Below, one piece after another: positions 4,380 through 11,562 of a DNA stretch of 11,562 nucleotides. Position 1 is the stretch's first letter; each line of letters begins with the position of its first letter. The stretch lies in contig DKBI01000191.1 in assembly GCA_002451175.1 (NCBI GenBank), positions 18,649-30,210 of the forward strand, written 5' to 3'. The position numbers were made by a program, and so were the translations under genes. Source of the stretch: Betaproteobacteria bacterium UBA6904 (GTDB lineage: Bacteria; Pseudomonadota; Gammaproteobacteria; Burkholderiales; SG8-39). The notes below the pieces were generated by a model. The model was not told the origin of the DNA. It searched no databases and saw nothing but the letters and a program-made list of their open reading frames with translations.

Positions 4380-4634
4380 TTACTTCTTCTTGCACTCCTT
4401 CTCGTTCGTGCAGGTCAGCTTCATGCCGTCCGCCGACGCCCCGTGGCAGTCCGCGCACTTCTTGTCGCCCGCCGCCTTCACCATGTCCTGCGCCGTCTTG
4501 GACACGTTGGTCTTCTTGCCCATCGCTTCGGTGTGGCAGGCCGAGCACTTGGCGCCCTTGACCATGTTGGGTTTGGCGAACGCCACGCCACCGAACACCA
4601 GAGACAGCGCCACGGCCAGCATCAATTTCTTCAT
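4380..4634 (-). CDS. Small periplasmic diheme cytochrome c
   Basis: The product is an 84-residue precursor. Residues 1-20 are a Sec signal peptide (MKK, hydrophobic core, AFA cleavage), leaving a mature protein of about 64 residues. Two CxxCH haem-attachment sites are present, CSACH (30-34) and CADCH (60-64). Each histidine is a proximal haem ligand; distal ligands are not obvious. Two further cysteines (C75, C81) near the C-terminus could form a disulphide. The mature part is rich in lysine and ends in KKK, suggesting docking to an acidic redox partner. GAGGAG lies just upstream, its GGAG 6 nt before the ATG at 4634; an in-frame upstream ATG lacks such a site. A possible -10 (TCTAAT, 4658-4653) is seen. 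The protein is probably a soluble electron carrier and would need the Ccm system encoded at the right of the window. Its partner is unknown. Confidence 0.88.
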   Translation of the reverse strand: MKKLMLAVALSLVFGGVAFAKPNMVKGAKCSACHTEAMGKKTNVSKTAQDMVKAAGDKKCADCHGASADGMKLTCTNEKECKKK

Positions 4635-4844
4635 TTCATTCTCCTCAAGTGAATTAGATCCCAATGCCTATCCCAAACCGCATAACGCTCCAGAACCCAC
4701 GCCGTTGACATTGTCATACAACCTCGGGGCTTCCTCAAGGGTCTGGCCCCTCGAAGCAAGCCTCCCTTCCGCCGATACCGGATTGCCCTCCGGCAGGCCG
4801 GCACAGGCCCACCAACCACACCCAATGCCCCTCAATCGCGCCAG
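4635..4844. other. Non-coding gap between cytochrome and histidine phosphatase genes
   Basis: This is a 210-bp stretch between two minus-strand genes. It is less GC-rich near the cytochrome and contains that gene's ribosome site, a weak -10 candidate and the palindrome TGACA-T-TGTCA (4706-4716). A 64-codon minus-strand open frame over it (4631-4825) has arginine-rich, low-complexity content and no ribosome site, and is not called. No clear terminator for the histidine phosphatase gene is visible. Confidence 0.5.
4706..4716. promoter_or_regulatory. Small palindrome upstream of the cytochrome gene (possible operator)
   Basis: TGACA-T-TGTCA is a perfect 5-1-5 palindrome about 72-82 bp upstream of the cytochrome start codon. 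Its size and position suit a transcription-factor site, but I cannot name the factor. Short palindromes also occur by chance. Confidence 0.25.
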
Positions 4845-5546: not shown

Positions 5547-7286
5547 ATGCGCCTGCCCAACCTGCTCGCCACGGCCCGAGGACGCCTCACCGCGTTCTTC
5601 TTCTTGTACATGACCGAGGGCATTCCCCTCGGCTTCGCGGCGACCGCGGTGGCGACCCAGCTGCGGCGCCAGGACGTCGGTCCGGCGGAGATCGGCGCCT
5701 TCGTGGCGTCGTTCTACCTGCCGTGGGCCTTCAAGTGGGCGTTCGGCCCGATCGTCGACGTCTTCGCCTCCGAGCGCTTCGGCCGGCGCCGGGGATGGAT
5801 CCTCGGCACGCAGATCCTGATGGCGGCCACGCTCCTTTCCACCGTGCTGCTCGATCTGCCGCAGCAGCTCGGGCTGTTCACCGCGATCCTGCTCGTGCAC
5901 AACACCTTCGGCGCAATGCAGGACGTCGCGATCGACGCGCTCGCCTGCAGCACGCTGTCCGAGCACGAGCGCGGCCTGGCGAACGGGATGATGTTCGCCG
6001 GCGCCTCGATCGGGCAGCTCGTCGGCGGCAGCGGCGTGCTGTTCCTCATGGGGTACACCGGATTCCAGCCGACGTTCTTCTTCGTCGCCGGCTGCATCCT
6101 CGCCGTGACCGCGTTCATCGTGCTGCCGATGCGCGAGGCCGCGGGCGAACCGCGCGCGGCAATCGTCGGGCCACGGCTGCGCGCGGCGGGGCGCGAAATG
6201 CACGACTTTGCGATTCGCTCGTTCCGCTCCTTCCTCGGCACGCGGGGCGCGTTCAGCGGCCTGGTGCTTTCCCTGCTGCCGCCGGGCGCCATGTGCCTCG
6301 GGCTGGCGCTGCAGTCGAACCTCGCCGTCGAGCTCGGCCTGAACAACGACGAGGTCGCGAAGCTCAATGCCTGGACCGCGGTCGTCGGCGCCGTTTCGAT
6401 GGTCGCGGGCGGCTACCTGTCCGACCGCTTCGGGCGGCGGCTGACGCTCTTCATCTACATTGCCTGCATGGGGCTGCCGGTGCTGTACCTGATGGCCTTG
6501 CTGCAACAGTATGGCTGGATCATGCCGATCAGCCCCAATGCGCCGAACCGGCCGGAGGTGCCGGCCGCGCTCGTCACCGCGCTGTGGATCGCGTCGATCG
6601 TCTACAACGTGTTCAACGGCCTGATGTACGGCACGCGCTCCGCGATCTGCATGGACGTCACCAACCCGCGGGTCGCCGCGACGCAGTTCACCGCCTACAT
6701 GGCGCTCATGAACCTGACGATTTCGTACAGCGCGGCCTGGCAGGGCATCGCCATCGAAGCGTGGGGCTACCCGCGCACCATGCTCGTCGACGTGCTGTTC
6801 GGCGTCGTGTGCCTGGCGTTGATCCCGTTCATGGCACGCAAGGCCGGCGAGTCGTTCACGGACGACGCCGCGCCGGTGCGGGCGCGCGCCGTGGCCGGGA
6901 TTCTCGGACTGGCGTGCCTCGCCTGGCTGCCCTTCCGCATGGGCGCCGAGACGCTGGGCGCGGCCCAGCCGATCGCCGGGACGCTGTTCACCCTGGTGTT
7001 CGTCGGCGCCGCGCTGTTCCTGTTCGCCGGCCGCGCGGTTCTCGGCGAACAGGCGGGCGCGCTGACGCGCGTCGGCCTGTGGATCGCGCCGCTGCTCCTG
7101 GCGATGTACGCGCGCTACCATCTGGACGCGATCGCGGGCTGGTTCGCGTTCGCCGTGACGCCGGAGACTTTCAAGTCGGCCGCCGAATGGGGCCTGCGCG
7201 GCGTGCCGCTCGCGGGCGGGATCACGCTCCTGCTGCTGGCGCTGCAACCCTGGCGCGAGCTGCGCCCGCAGCCCGAAACCGCCTAG
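5547..7286 (+). CDS. MFS transporter, PAT/AmpG-like, with extended C-terminus
   Basis: This 579-residue inner-membrane protein has a dozen or more hydrophobic segments. The N-terminal EGIPLGF motif, the FYLPWAFKWAFGP segment leading into VD, then GRRRGW (about 60-84), and QDVAIDAL (125-132) are typical of the peptide/acetyl-CoA/drug transporter (PAT) branch, which includes the muropeptide permease AmpG. A second loop motif, GGYLSDRFGRR, is at 288-298. The core ends near residue 428. About 150 further residues follow, with roughly four more hydrophobic segments. AmpG proteins also carry extra helices, but this protein is longer than the roughly 490-residue E. coli AmpG. The substrate could be anhydro-muropeptides or another metabolite. 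No ampC, ampD or nagZ is nearby. No clear ribosome site precedes the ATG. The stop overlaps the ubiT stop on the opposite strand. Confidence 0.85.
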   Translation: MRLPNLLATARGRLTAFFFLYMTEGIPLGFAATAVATQLRRQDVGPAEIGAFVASFYLPWAFKWAFGPIVDVFASERFGRRRGWILGTQILMAATLLSTVLLDLPQQLGLFTAILLVHNTFGAMQDVAIDALACSTLSEHERGLANGMMFAGASIGQLVGGSGVLFLMGYTGFQPTFFFVAGCILAVTAFIVLPMREAAGEPRAAIVGPRLRAAGREMHDFAIRSFRSFLGTRGAFSGLVLSLLPPGAMCLGLALQSNLAVELGLNNDEVAKLNAWTAVVGAVSMVAGGYLSDRFGRRLTLFIYIACMGLPVLYLMALLQQYGWIMPISPNAPNRPEVPAALVTALWIASIVYNVFNGLMYGTRSAICMDVTNPRVAATQFTAYMALMNLTISYSAAWQGIAIEAWGYPRTMLVDVLFGVVCLALIPFMARKAGESFTDDAAPVRARAVAGILGLACLAWLPFRMGAETLGAAQPIAGTLFTLVFVGAALFLFAGRAVLGEQAGALTRVGLWIAPLLLAMYARYHLDAIAGWFAFAVTPETFKSAAEWGLRGVPLAGGITLLLLALQPWRELRPQPETA

Positions 7287-7681
7287 AACCCGCGCAGCGG
7301 GCGCGGCAGGCGCGACCAGTCGATCGCGTCCAGCGCGTTCTTGGCGATCAGCCCGAGGTCGGTGTCGCCGGTCATGACGAGGCGGCGCGTGAAGAAGAGC
7401 GTGTCGGGATCTTCGCGTCGCGTGGCGAGCGCCACGAAGTCGGCGAACGCCGCCTTGATCTCCAGATCCGCGTCGCTGCCGCGCGCCGCCGGGCGAAACC
7501 CGAGCGCGCCGTAGGTGAGCCGCACGCGCACGCCGAGGTCGCGCGCTTCGATGCAGAGCGTCTTGCCGCGCAAGGGCTCGAGCGCATCGCGCGACAGCAA
7601 CCCGCTGACCAGCGCGATCTCGAGCGCCGCGGAAAGCGCGACTGCCGGCGGCCACTCCGGAAGCAGGCCGAGCAGCTTCAT
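7283..7681 (-). CDS. ubiT: UbiT, SCP2-domain accessory factor for O2-independent ubiquinone synthesis
   Basis: This 132-residue protein has an SCP2 (sterol-carrier) lipid-binding domain over nearly its full length. In E. coli UbiT works with UbiU and UbiV so that ubiquinone can be made without oxygen, and is thought to bind prenylated quinone intermediates. The C-terminal block [21 protein letters not shown] followed by [12 protein letters not shown] is the strongest UbiT signature. The protein is shorter than the roughly 174-residue E. coli UbiT, mainly at the N-terminus. The ATG overlaps the ubiV stop (ATGA), and GGAG lies 8 nt upstream. It is the last gene of the operon. Its TAG stop shares the palindrome CTAG (7283-7286) with the convergent MFS stop, leaving no room for a separate terminator. 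In E. coli ubiT is divergent from ubiUV, whereas here all three are in one operon. Confidence 0.9.
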
Positions 7682-8568
7682 GCCGCGAGCTCCAGCCCAG
7701 GCCGGCCGTGCCAGAAGCCGTCGCAGGTGTCTGTCTCCGGCAGCGCGCCCGAGGACGCACCGTCGCAAAGCGCGCGCAGCATCGCCAGCGTTTCGACGGT
7801 GCCCGCCGATTGCGGGCTGACGCGCAGCACGTCGATGCCGGTCGCGCGCACCGACGCCAGGTCGGGAACGAGGCTGTAGCACTTGGCGGATTGCGTCTGC
7901 ACGCCGTTCAGCACGAGGAAGGGCAGGCCCTCGCGTGTCTTCAGCAGCATCCCGTCCGGGTGCTCGAGGCACCGGTAGGCGCAGCTCTCCTTCTGCAGGT
8001 TGTAGCGCCGGGCCGTGAAGCAGCGCGCCGAGTACGCGAGCGGCAGCCGCCCGTGCGCGAACACTTCCGCTTCCATGCCTGCCGGACGCTCGGCAAGAAC
8101 GCCTCTGGCGATCCCCTGCGTCACCTCGACGGGCGCCACCCAGCGCGTCGCTCCCATTGCGGCGATCATCGCCAGCGATTGCGGACTGTAGAGATTCAGG
8201 TATGGGCCCGCGACCCAGTTCGTCGCGCCGGCCAGCAGGCTGACCGCGCCCATGTCGTTGGCTTCGACGCGCCAGCGCGCGTTCTGCACCACGCGGCGAA
8301 CGAGCTTCAGGTCACCTTCGCTTTCGGTGACGGGTTGCGTCGAGAACACGACTTCCTTGCCATGCGCCGCGAGGAGGTCCCCGACCTCGACCCAGTCCTC
8401 GAACCGCATCTCGTGCCGGCGCGAGCACACCACCTCGCCGAGATAGACGATGTCGGCCGCCGATTCCGCGATGCCGGCGTAGAACTGCATGACCGCCGTG
8501 CGCGGCCAGTAATAGAGCAACGGCCCGAGGGCGAGCTTCAGCCGGCCGCGCTCCGTCTCGCGCGTCAT
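7678..8568 (-). CDS. ubiV: UbiV, 4Fe-4S U32-family protein of O2-independent ubiquinone hydroxylation
   Basis: This 296-residue protein is a U32 'peptidase'-family member, close in length to E. coli UbiV (292). UbiU and UbiV form a heterodimer needed for the ring hydroxylations of ubiquinone under anoxia, probably using prephenate as oxygen donor. The start [14 protein letters not shown] (10-23) is typical of UbiV. Cysteines C48, C183, C196 and C200 match the E. coli 4Fe-4S ligands (C39, C180, C193, C197); the last three keep identical spacing. C230 is extra. The region [18 protein letters not shown] (190-207) holds two of the ligands. The ATG (8568) overlaps the ubiU stop as ATGA, and GAGG lies 8 nt upstream. 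Longer in-frame extensions into ubiU are rejected because they are off the family pattern. Confidence 0.95.
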
Positions 8569-9560
8569 TTCCACGGCCTCGAGAACGCGCCGAGCGTCTG
8601 CTGGCTGCCCTCGGCGTGCCGCCCGAGGGCCGCGATCCACTGCGCGCGCGGCACGAACCGCTCCGGTTCCGCGCGCAGCGCGTCGATCGCCTCGCGCCAG
8701 ACCTGCGTGACCTGCGCGACGTAGGCGGGGCTGCGCTGCCGCCCCTCGATCTTCACCGCGCGCACCCCGGCGCGCAGGAAATCCGGCAGCAGCTCGATCG
8801 TATTGAGACTCGCGGGCTCCTCGACGGCGTAATAGGTCGCGCCGTCGACCTCGAAGCGCCCCTTGCACAGCGTCGGGTAGGCGGCGCGCTCGCCCGGTGC
8901 GTAGCGGTCGATGAGCACGCCATTGAGCCGCGACTCCAGGCCCGCCGCGGTTTCCTCCCAGCGCACCGCGTGTCCCGGCGAGCAGGCGCCGAAGGTATTC
9001 GGCGAATCCCCGCAGGCGTACGCCGACAGCGCGCAGCGCCCCTCCACCATCACGCACAGGCCGCCGAAGCCGAACACCTCGATCTCCACCGACGTGTTGC
9101 GCGCGACGAGTTCCACCTGCGCCAGCGACAGCACGCGGGGCAGCACCGCGCGCGTCACGCCGAAGCGCTCCTGGTAGAAGTTGATCGCCTCGTAGTTCGT
9201 CGCCGAACCCTGGACGGAAAGATGCAGCGTGAGTCCGGGGTGCGTGCGATGCGCGTAGTCGAGCAGCGCCAGGTCGGCGACGATGATCGCGTCCACGCCC
9301 GTGTCCGCGGCGAGATCCACGGCATCGGTCCAGCGCCGCCAGGTCGCCGCCTGCGGGTAGGTATTCAGCGCCAGCAGCACCTTGCGGCGGCGCGCGTGCG
9401 CGTACGCCAGGCCCTGGAGCAGCGCCGCGCGGTCAAAGTTCAGGCCGGCGAAATTGCGCGCGTTGGTGCTGTCGCGCAGCCCGAGATAGACCCAGTCGGC
9501 GCCGTGGTCAATAGCCGCCTTGAGCGCGGGCAGGCTGCCGGCCGGGCAAACGAGATCCAT
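8565..9560 (-). CDS. ubiU: UbiU, 4Fe-4S U32-family protein of O2-independent ubiquinone hydroxylation
   Basis: This 331-residue protein has the same length as E. coli UbiU. Cysteines at 169, 176, 193 and 232 fall at the very positions reported as 4Fe-4S ligands in E. coli UbiU; C183 is an additional cysteine. The N-terminus [20 protein letters not shown] is the classic U32 opening, followed by [16 protein letters not shown] (25-40). [20 protein letters not shown] (163-182) and the downstream GACSPG hold the cluster region. U32 members are often annotated as collagenases, but the cysteine pattern and the UbiV and UbiT neighbours identify this as the ubiquinone protein. It is the first gene of the operon. 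An AGAGG about 11 nt before the ATG is a plausible ribosome site. A TAGAAT -10 (9594-9589) and an FNR-type box lie upstream. Confidence 0.95.
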
Positions 9561-9588
9561 CTGGTAAAAGCCTCTGGAAAAAGGGAAA

Positions 9589-9594
9589 ATTCTA
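9589..9594 (-). promoter_or_regulatory. Candidate -10 box (TAGAAT) of the ubiUVT operon
   Basis: The minus strand reads CGCAAA-TAGAAT-TTTCCC. A start near 9582 would give a leader of about 22 nt. At 16-18 bp spacing the upstream sequence is GC-rich (for example CGCCAC) with no recognisable -35, as expected for an activator-dependent promoter. Confidence 0.45.
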
Positions 9595-9634
9595 TTTGCG
9601 ACGGGCGCTCGGTGGCGCCGCCCCGGCGCAATGA

Positions 9635-9648
9635 TTGACCGGCGTCAA
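9635..9648. promoter_or_regulatory. FNR/CRP-family binding site between ubiUVT and ccm operons
   Basis: TTGAC-CGGC-GTCAA is a perfect palindrome fitting the FNR/FnrL/ANR consensus TTGAY-N4-RTCAA. Its centre (9641.5) is about 59.5 bp upstream of the start point predicted from the ubiU TAGAAT, near the class I distance. It is about 40.5 bp upstream of the start predicted from GAGAAT (9670-9675) for ccmA, near the class II distance. E. coli ubiUV is known to be FNR-activated, and ccm genes are commonly induced under anoxia. The regulator itself is not in the window; Dnr or another CRP-family protein is possible. Confidence 0.7.
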
Positions 9649-9696
9649 AGTCTGTCGGACGCTGGACGCGAGAATGCCTCGGCCTTACCCACCCTG

Positions 9697-10308
9697 ATGC
9701 TCAGTGCGATCGACCTCGAATGCATACGTGGAACACGCCGGCTCTTTGCCGGCGTGTCGTTCGACATCGAGCCGGGACAATGCCTGTTCGTCCAGGGGCC
9801 GAACGGCTGCGGCAAGACGAGTCTCCTGCGCATCCTTTGCGGGCTGGCGCGGCCGGAGAGCGGCGAAGTGCGCTGGAACGCGGAGCCGGTCGGCGCGCTG
9901 GCGGAGGAATACCGTGCCGCACTCGTCTACTGCGGGCACGCCAACGCGCTCAAGGACGACCTCACGGCGGGTGAGAACCTGCTCGCCTCCGCTGCGCTCG
10001 CCGGACGGCCGGCGAGCGGCAGCGAGATGCGCGCCGCGCTCGCGACGCTCGGCATCGCGCACCTCGAGGCGCTGCCGGTGCGCGCTTTGTCCGCCGGCCA
10101 GAAGCGGCGCGTCGCGCTGGCGCGCCTCGCGCTCAGCGCCTGCCGCCTGTGGATCCTCGACGAGCCGCTCACCTCGCTGGACGTCGCCGCGGCGGCCACG
10201 CTCGCCGGTCTCGTCGACGAGCACCTCGAGCGCGGCGGCATCGCCGTGCTCACCAGCCACCAGCCGATCGAGTTGCGCGTGCAAGCGCGCATCTTCGCCT
10301 TCGCATGA
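9697..10308 (+). CDS. ccmA: CcmA, ATPase of the haem-handling ABC complex for cytochrome c maturation
   Basis: This 203-residue ABC ATPase compares with about 207 in E. coli CcmA. With CcmB it forms the CcmABCD complex, which uses ATP to release haem-loaded CcmE in the periplasm (System I). The Walker A motif is GPNGCGKTS, preceded by FVQ. The signature is LSAGQKRR, and the Walker B is LWILDEP followed by LTSLDV. The switch histidine is in LTSHQP. The ATG at 9697 is chosen because the protein then begins MLSAIDLECIRG, matching family N-termini. An earlier in-frame ATG at 9631 would add 22 unrelated residues and would make the FNR-type site coding. No Shine-Dalgarno precedes 9697. The stop overlaps ccmB as ATGA. 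Confidence 0.95.
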   Translation: MLSAIDLECIRGTRRLFAGVSFDIEPGQCLFVQGPNGCGKTSLLRILCGLARPESGEVRWNAEPVGALAEEYRAALVYCGHANALKDDLTAGENLLASAALAGRPASGSEMRAALATLGIAHLEALPVRALSAGQKRRVALARLALSACRLWILDEPLTSLDVAAAATLAGLVDEHLERGGIAVLTSHQPIELRVQARIFAFA

Positions 10309-10994
10309 GCGCCGCCGCGGTCTCGGTCGGTGCGGCGATGGCGGGCGTCGTGCGTCGCGACCTGCTGCTCGCCGCGCGCCGCAAGTCGGAGCCGCTGTTC
10401 ACGCTGGGGTTCTTCGTGCTCGTCGCGAGCCTGTTTCCGCTCAGCATCGGGCCGGAGGCGGAATTGCTCCGGCGCATCGCGCCGGGCGTGCTCTGGGTAG
10501 CCGCGCTGCTGGCCGCGATGCTCTCGCTCGGCCGCATGTTCGCCGCGGACTACGACGACGGCACGCTCGAGCAGCTGGCGCTCGCGCCGGTGCCGATCGT
10601 CGCCTCGGTGACCGGCAAGATCATCGCCCACTGGCTCGTTTCCGGCTTTCCGCTGGTCGTGATCTCGCCCGTGCTCGCCCTGCAGTACGGCTTGCCGGCC
10701 GACGTGATCGTCATGCTGATGGTCTCGCTGCTGATCGGCACGCCGATCCTGTCGCTGATCGGCAGCATCGGCGCGGCGCTGACGCTCGGCGTGCGGGGCG
10801 GCGGCGTCCTGGTGGCCCTGCTCGTCCTTCCGCTCTACGTGCCCGCGCTGATCTTCGGCGCCGGCGCCGTCGACCAGAGGCTCGCCGGCTTGAGCCCGGC
10901 CGGCAACCTGTCCCTGCTCGGCGCGTGCCTCGCGCTCGCCGCGCTGTTCGCCCCGCTCGCGACGGCCGCCGGCGTGCGGATCGCGCTGGAGTAG
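10305..10994 (+). CDS. ccmB: CcmB, membrane subunit of the CcmABCD haem-handling complex
   Basis: This 229-residue inner-membrane protein compares with about 220 in E. coli CcmB. It has about six hydrophobic segments and is the permease-like partner of CcmA. Family features are VVRRDLLLAARRKSE near residues 15-29, the SLFPLSIGPE stretch, PGVLWVAALLAAMLSLGRMF, and DYDDGTLEQL, which matches the CcmB cytoplasmic loop. Further on, the G-T-P-x-L-S-L-I-G-S-I-G-A-A-L-T-L segment is strongly conserved. The start codon overlaps the ccmA stop (ATGA) with no ribosome site of its own, suggesting translational coupling. ccmC begins 4 nt after the stop. Confidence 0.93.
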   Translation: MSAAAVSVGAAMAGVVRRDLLLAARRKSEPLFTLGFFVLVASLFPLSIGPEAELLRRIAPGVLWVAALLAAMLSLGRMFAADYDDGTLEQLALAPVPIVASVTGKIIAHWLVSGFPLVVISPVLALQYGLPADVIVMLMVSLLIGTPILSLIGSIGAALTLGVRGGGVLVALLVLPLYVPALIFGAGAVDQRLAGLSPAGNLSLLGACLALAALFAPLATAAGVRIALE

Positions 10995-10998
10995 CCGC

Positions 10999-11562
10999 AT
11001 GAGCAATCGCCTCGTCAACTGGTTCCGCTACGGCTCGCCGCAGAGTTTCTACCCGCTCGCGGGCCGGATGATCCCCTGGTTCACGGCCCTCGCGGTGGCG
11101 CTGACGCTCGCCGGGGCCTGGGTGGGCTTCCTGCTGGCGCCGACCGATGCGCAGCAGGGCGATTCCTACCGGATCATCTTCGTCCACGTCCCCGCGGCCT
11201 GGATGTCCATGTTCCTGTACGTCGTGATGGCATTCTGGGCGGGGCTCGGGCTGGTCCTCAACACGCGTCTTTCGGCGATGATGGCGCACGCCATCGCGCC
11301 CACCGGGGCGATGTTCACCTTCATCGCGCTGTGGTCGGGCGCGCTGTGGGGCCGGCCGACCTGGGGCGCCTACTGGGTGTGGGACGCGCGCCTGACGTCG
11401 GAACTTGTGCTGTTCTTTTTGTACTTAGGCTACATGGCCCTCAATGCCGCGATCGACGACCCGCGCCGCGCCGACCGCGCCGCCGCGGTGCTCGCGCTGG
11501 TCGGCGTCGTCAACGTGCCGATCATCTACTTCTCCGTCCAATGGTGGAACACGCTGCACCAG
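10999..11562 (+). CDS. ccmC: CcmC, haem-presenting membrane protein (partial, cut by window end)
   Basis: The first 188 codons of CcmC are present without a stop; E. coli CcmC has about 245 residues. CcmC belongs to the haem-handling protein family and presents haem to CcmE on the periplasmic face. The tryptophan-rich motif spans 117-131 (WGRPTWGAYWVWDAR) and is followed by LTSELVLFFLYLGY. The two haem-ligand histidines are present: H63 in IIFVHVP and H187 in WWNTLH, corresponding to E. coli H60 and H184. Five hydrophobic segments are visible up to the cut. GGAG lies 7 nt before the ATG, inside the end of ccmB. ccmD, ccmE and later genes would be expected beyond the window. Confidence 0.95.
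   Translation, partial: MSNRLVNWFRYGSPQSFYPLAGRMIPWFTALAVALTLAGAWVGFLLAPTDAQQGDSYRIIFVHVPAAWMSMFLYVVMAFWAGLGLVLNTRLSAMMAHAIAPTGAMFTFIALWSGALWGRPTWGAYWVWDARLTSELVLFFLYLGYMALNAAIDDPRRADRAAAVLALVGVVNVPIIYFSVQWWNTLHQ

Follow-up and report, generated by a model that had tools for sequence, protein, structure and literature searches.

A predicted FNR-type activator site common to the divergent ubiUVT and ccm operons in a betaproteobacterial genus

A perfect FNR-type palindrome, TTGACCGGCGTCAA, lies between the divergently transcribed genes ubiU and ccmA in an 11,562-base stretch of DNA from Betaproteobacteria bacterium UBA6904 (the window). Judging from sequence comparisons, we think it probable that this single site activates both ubiU and ccmA in the absence of oxygen, most likely through the genome's own FNR. 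This reading, put forward in a first-pass annotation of the window, is supported as a prediction, in which we infer binding, transcription start points, direction of the effect, identity of the regulator, and order of events. FNR control of ubiUVT is widely published, and that of ccm is known in E. coli; a site common to both looks new as a way of arranging two known FNR targets, although the type of control is itself not new.

The palindrome, its flanking genes and similar sites in the genome

The main features of the region are as follows.

9635..9648, no strand assigned: FNR-type palindrome TTGACCGGCGTCAA, proposed common activator site (motif match; genome enrichment; 3/3 readable genomes of the genus)
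8565..9560, minus strand: ubiU, O2-independent ubiquinone synthesis (NCBIfam NF047963, 539 bits, cut-off 440)
7678..8562, minus strand: ubiV, start approximate (NF047965, 347.9 bits, cut-off 275)
7283..7681, minus strand: ubiT, start approximate (NF047962, 121.3 bits, cut-off 46.9)
9697..10308, plus strand: ccmA, haem exporter ATPase, gene 1 of the ccm operon (TIGR01189, 216.8 bits, cut-off 131.6, scored on the ORF from 9631; the start at 9697 is taken from congeners)
10305..10994, plus strand: ccmB (TIGR01190, 236.6 bits, cut-off 156.2)
10999..11562, plus strand: probable ccmC, extending beyond the window end (ORF order in L012)

The annotation had described a perfect TTGAC-N4-GTCAA in a 136-bp gap, and both the site, at 9635-9648, and the gap, at 9561-9696, are confirmed; the gap is bounded by the start codons of ubiU (ATG 9558-9560, minus strand) and ccmA (ATG 9697-9699, plus strand). 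The box has 0 mismatches to TTGAYN4RTCAA and is the sole match with at most one mismatch in the window; the chance expectation of a perfect site in 136 bp is 2.4e-5. Counting window matches with up to two mismatches is an uninformative test, with 2 matches against a shuffle mean of 1.82 and no enrichment. The name ccmC is a probable one given by resemblance, and further ORFs downstream in the contig resemble ccmE and ccmF. The assembly, which is 74% complete, contains a single ccmB and no ResB (second cytochrome c system, for aerobic growth); ccm is therefore probably also needed with oxygen, with basal expression required. The operon is probably not strictly anaerobic, and FNR would raise, not gate, its expression. 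Elsewhere in the window (4380-4664, minus strand), there is a small protein with a signal-like start and two CxxCH motifs that matches a triheme cytochrome domain weakly, with a score under the cut-off.

Box-type sites are enriched in the genome. The strict pattern TTGACN4GTCAA is found 16 times in the 3.12-Mb assembly, as against 0 occurrences of the reversed pattern and about 0.55 expected at the composition of the window (70% GC); TTGATN4RTCAA gives 14 forward and 12 reverse matches at 20 distinct places, with 0 and 0 in the reversed control. By a rough ORF call, 15/16 strict sites are outside genes or at gene edges. The distinct box sites number 36, and the neighbours of a part of them were scanned (20 proteins, one being the FNR itself). 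Downstream of strict sites we found HemN (a partial protein with 130 bits, the full-length cut-off being 325), a NuoE/NuoF-like protein, oxalyl-CoA decarboxylase and a GlpC-like protein, as well as a copper P-type ATPase separated from its site by another ORF. The TTGAT-type sites precede an octaheme tetrathionate-reductase-family cytochrome (two boxes), NAD(P) transhydrogenase alpha, a protein weakly similar to multihaem cytochromes, and a weak HPF match. Neighbours atypical of anaerobiosis include PutA, 2-dehydropantoate reductase, an ECF sigma factor, an F1-ATPase beta fragment, a glutamate-dehydrogenase-like protein and ribonuclease Z. The box set of the genome is FNR-like but mixed.

Several of these sites have peculiarities of their own. 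Four of the 16 strict sites extend to the 18-bp palindrome CGTTGAC-N4-GTCAACG (C72:4519, C95:275, C167:3952 and C186:1624; L008, L009, L011 and L014), and may belong to a regulator other than FNR. The two boxes of the octaheme cytochrome locus (L150:1411 and 1498, contig C173) are 87 bp apart; on their other side is a flavoprotein with weak similarity to sulfide:quinone reductase. One box (L147:1501, C120:8289) sits between a small CxxCH ORF, unmatched in NCBIfam, and a regulator of the CRP/FNR family that lacks the FNR cysteine pattern and has another box just 3' of its gene. Another (L007:2993, contig C57) has oxalyl-CoA decarboxylase on one side and, on the other, a divergent regulator of the CRP/FNR family whose helix reads PETLSR.

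Predicted promoters and conservation within the genus

Five genomes represent the genus, and the ubiU-ccmA gap is readable in three of them: the window's own, G001 (L102) and G002 (L101, with upstream sequence identical to L020). G003 and G004 were left out; in these, ccmB is at a contig edge, ubiU is partial or not found, and the gap has no match. The predicted promoter elements are the following.

9670..9675, plus strand: predicted ccmA -10 element GAGAAT, 21 nt from the box (box centre at about -40.5)
9589..9594, minus strand: predicted ubiU -10 element TAGAAT, 40 nt from the box (box centre at about -59.5)

On the ccmA strand of the gap, no -10-like hexamer other than GAGAAT, a 4/6 match to TATAAT, occurs downstream of the box; GAGAAT is part of GCGAGAATGC (9668-9677), invariant in the alignment of the three species. 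On the ubiU strand, the window and G002 have TAGAAT as their sole -10-like hexamer past the box; it is part of a 21-nt block at 9577-9597, also invariant in the three species. G001 additionally has AACAAT on this strand at a distance of 21 nt from the box, a possible class II ubiU start in that genome. The invariant block itself (GAAAAAGGGAAAATTCTATTT, window 9577-9597, 21 nt) is longer than a -10 element alone accounts for.

If a standard -10 occupies -12 to -7, the centre of the box falls at about -40.5 relative to the predicted ccmA -10 in all three species, within the class II range of -41.5 (+/-4), and at about -59.5 on the ubiU side. The usual class I distance for FNR is -61.5 or whole turns further upstream. 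The annotation's estimates of "near -41" and "near -60" were right; its description of the two as the classic activator distances fits ccmA, and for ubiU the box is 2 bp short of -61.5. The chance of -10-like hexamers at both places is 5e-5 at window composition and 0.0012 at gap composition, calculated for ranges (20-23 and 39-44) that were chosen after the data had been seen. A sigma-70 scan demanding a -35 element reported no promoter on either strand in 9400-9900, as expected for activator-dependent promoters.

Three other ways to interpret the gap were considered and rejected. The TTGAC half-site is not a plain sigma-70 -35 element, with no -10-like hexamer found 16-18 nt on in either strand. 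A second, ubiU-specific box in the class II slot has 7, 8 and 9 mismatches in the three species. A longer ccmA gene beginning at ATG 9631, which would contain the box, conflicts with the absence of this codon from both congeners and with the distance from GAGAAT to the ccmA ATG, which is 22 nt in G002 and 21 in the window and G001, breaking the frame from 9631; ATG 9697 is the likely start.

Comparison of the gap among related genomes, which the annotation had proposed, supports its claim of one site placed for both operons. Gene order and the TTGAYN4RTCAA box are kept in 3/3 readable genomes, the window's own included; the box-to-GAGAAT distance of 21 nt and the box-to-TAGAAT distance of 40 nt are identical in all three, and the rest of the gap has diverged, the islands kept in the alignment being 9577-9597, the box, and 9668-9677. 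Only 5 positions are kept in the 21-nt spacer and 20 in the 40-nt one. Invariant positions comprise 8/8 of the strict core of the box versus 25/61 of the spacers (Fisher p 0.0017, a guide only, as the sequences are related and boxes found by motif make the comparison partly circular); a motif-blind alignment also puts the three boxes in register. When a 261-bp probe spanning the gap was compared with 98 genomes of the family, only these three had a full-length match, and 22 more matched short parts of it.

The box in other relatives and the operons it may serve

Among the best 80 of 589 ubiU relatives (species genomes, all counted, some with short upstream sequence, and one, L020, from the genus), a perfect TTGAYN4RTCAA is found 30-130 nt upstream of ubiU in 31/80, and a box with at most one mismatch in 40/80; the reversed control at the same distances gave 0 perfect matches and 0 with at most one mismatch. 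Further upstream in these loci, there are 3 perfect matches at 130-300 nt and 0 at 300-470 nt (15 and 5, respectively, with at most one mismatch). In 23 of the 31 perfect ubiU boxes, a -10-like hexamer follows exactly 22 nt past the box, a class II arrangement, whereas L020, the genus member among them, has one at 40 nt only. L020 is also the only one of these best 80 with ccmA adjoining and divergent from ubiU; in L062, ccmA is elsewhere in the locus. Within the family but outside the genus, 11 loci have full-length ubiU (L103-105, 109-112, 114 and 117-119); a box within 300 nt is perfect in 4/11 of them and has at most one mismatch in 8/11, at varied distances. The closest non-genus ubiU among the best 80 (L021, 86%) has a different divergent ORF and an imperfect box with 2 mismatches, by hand count 23 nt from TAAAAT; the best match upstream of ccmA in that genome has 2 mismatches as well.

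For ccm, ccmB was found in 49/61 genomes, and 30 loci were taken for reading upstream of ccmA; leaving out L162, L163 and L176 (no ccmA) and L177 (no upstream sequence) gave 26, i.e., 3 in the genus and 23 others. Outside the genus, a perfect box was seen at 1/23 (L174), a box with one mismatch at 1/23 (L164), and two or more mismatches at 21/23, on which ground an FNR box at ccm as a general state was rejected. Across the relatives examined, the motif is associated with ubiU more than with ccm. A box in class II position to ccmA beside ubiU was seen in this genus only, and the connection with ccm seems to be an addition made in the genus.

These comparisons bear on which operon the box serves. 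It is unlikely, in our estimation, that it acts on ccmA only as a class II site, with ubiU depending on a different promoter or regulator and its spacing of 40 nt being incidental. The 21-nt spacing is near typical FNR geometry, the ubiU distance is off the optimum, and the ubiU class II slot has no box in any of the three species; but ubiU carries a box in many relatives, both in the perfect 31/80 noted above and in a survey of Pseudomonadota, where an FNR site is predicted for 1180/1566 ubiU genes (PMC11707229), and neither the 40-nt spacing nor the TAGAAT block varies among the three species. The converse, that the box belongs to ubiU alone and the adjoining ccmA is transcribed from an unrelated promoter, we regard as improbable. 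It agrees with the 21/23 non-genus ccm loci that have at least two mismatches, with L205, which also has no FNR box, and with the probable need for ccm under oxygen; moreover, a conserved GAAAAT precedes the box on the ccmA strand, 64 nt ahead of the end of the box, and could be a basal ccm promoter. Yet GCGAGAATGC is placed exactly 21 nt from the box in all three species, even though just 5/21 spacer positions are kept.

As to the regulator, PF13545 has nine matches in the genome, seven of them above the cut-off. One of the nine, on contig C178, has the C-X2-C-X5-C pattern (CSGCNLREMC), a central cysteine and an ETVSR recognition helix of the E--SR type; this 218-aa piece without the first residues scores 221.4 bits with the Fnr model NF008365 (cut-off 228). 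Four other domains (C120, C262, C284 and C57) have the E--SR helix without N-terminal cluster cysteines, and the helices of C210 and C215 read EMVSR. The sequence by itself does not decide among the E--SR regulators for this box. We give little credence to a site read mainly by one of the four, e.g., a DNR-type nitric-oxide sensor, with a signal other than oxygen itself: C120 and C57 do have boxes at their own genes, but the cysteine-bearing FNR is present in the genus (90% identity in G001 and G002, pieces with 95-96% in G004 and G003), and its contig also carries a hemN box at a distance of about 2.4 kb. A chance palindrome with no function, compatible with a box at this gap in three genomes only, is barely credible given the genome enrichment, conservation and constant spacing.

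Proposed mechanism and comparison with known systems

We favour a common site for both operons. The palindrome would be a binding site of an FNR-type regulator, most likely the oxygen-sensing [4Fe-4S] FNR encoded on C178; without oxygen, the FNR dimer would bind and both divergent promoters would be activated, ccmA in a class II arrangement, with the box replacing the absent -35, and ubiU in a class I-like one. In origin, the box probably served ubiU; the ccm operon of this genus adjoins it and has the close position, and ubiU lacks the usual 22-nt spacing. With a class II polymerase at ccmA, an alpha C-terminal domain would be located on the side of the box that faces ubiU, and therefore the two polymerases may compete. 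Tentatively, we suggest a regulatory capture, in which ccm took the class II position of the ubiU box and left ubiU at a class I-like distance, so that one dimer sets both operons as a unit, perhaps with two polymerases competing for it. The capture is made slightly less likely by the half of the 80 ubiU loci (best 80 of 589) that lack a box with at most one mismatch at 30-130 nt, and by the family members with the nearest ubiU, which have imperfect boxes at another distance. The common-site reading is supported by the enrichment, conservation and constant spacing of the box, by the cysteine-bearing FNR, by the frequency of FNR boxes at ubiU in related bacteria, and by the boxes that precede hemN and the octaheme c-type cytochrome gene; counting against it are the 2-bp offset on the ubiU side, the rarity of class I action by FNR, the 4/6 match of the ccmA -10, the many genome boxes not beside typical anaerobic genes, the four other E--SR regulators, the probable need for ccm with oxygen, the 40/80 ubiU loci without a box, and the small number of related genomes, three.

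In E. coli, FNR activates ubiUV via the F1 site and ubiT via F2 (PMC10470549). The present region is similar to that ubiT-ubiUV region in that FNR-type sites occur in a divergent gap at genes of O2-independent ubiquinone synthesis; however, E. coli has two sites and ubiT as the divergent partner, whereas here there is one site, the partner is ccm, and ubiT follows ubiUV on the same strand. A Pseudomonadota-wide survey found that 1362/1566 ubiTUV triplets have a candidate FNR site at one or both of ubiU and ubiT (PMC11707229); it shares with our region the FNR motif upstream of ubiU, and ccm goes unmentioned in the available part of its text. The E. coli ccm operon is FNR-activated (PMC10845959), and its genes are described as expressed only anaerobically (PMC10937671). 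Such FNR control is here predicted for ccm as well. The E. coli genes belong to the nap-ccm cluster and are not known to be controlled from a site in common with ubiquinone genes. Among the 23 FNR-activated promoters of E. coli with known starts, the site is at -41.5 (+/-4) in 19 and at -60.5 in one (PMC3688515), and class I action by FNR is therefore uncommon.

ccmA and ubiU have been brought together before in Pectobacterium versatile, where both are in a table of PhoPQ-affected genes (PMC7843439); this involves another regulator and separate loci, each with a PhoP-type sequence of its own. A limited literature search on ubiU and ccm together led to PMC7843439, where the passages on the two genes describe no common site, and it is on this search that we call the arrangement new.

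Each half of the proposed control, FNR acting on ubiUVT and FNR acting on ccm, is established knowledge. If the common-site prediction is true, one 14-bp site ties the synthesis of a lipid electron carrier without oxygen to the machinery for c-type cytochromes, and the region would exemplify how an FNR box already in place can come to act on an adjoining operon once genes have been rearranged. The octaheme cytochrome gene of the same genome also has boxes, which makes this coupling logic testable.
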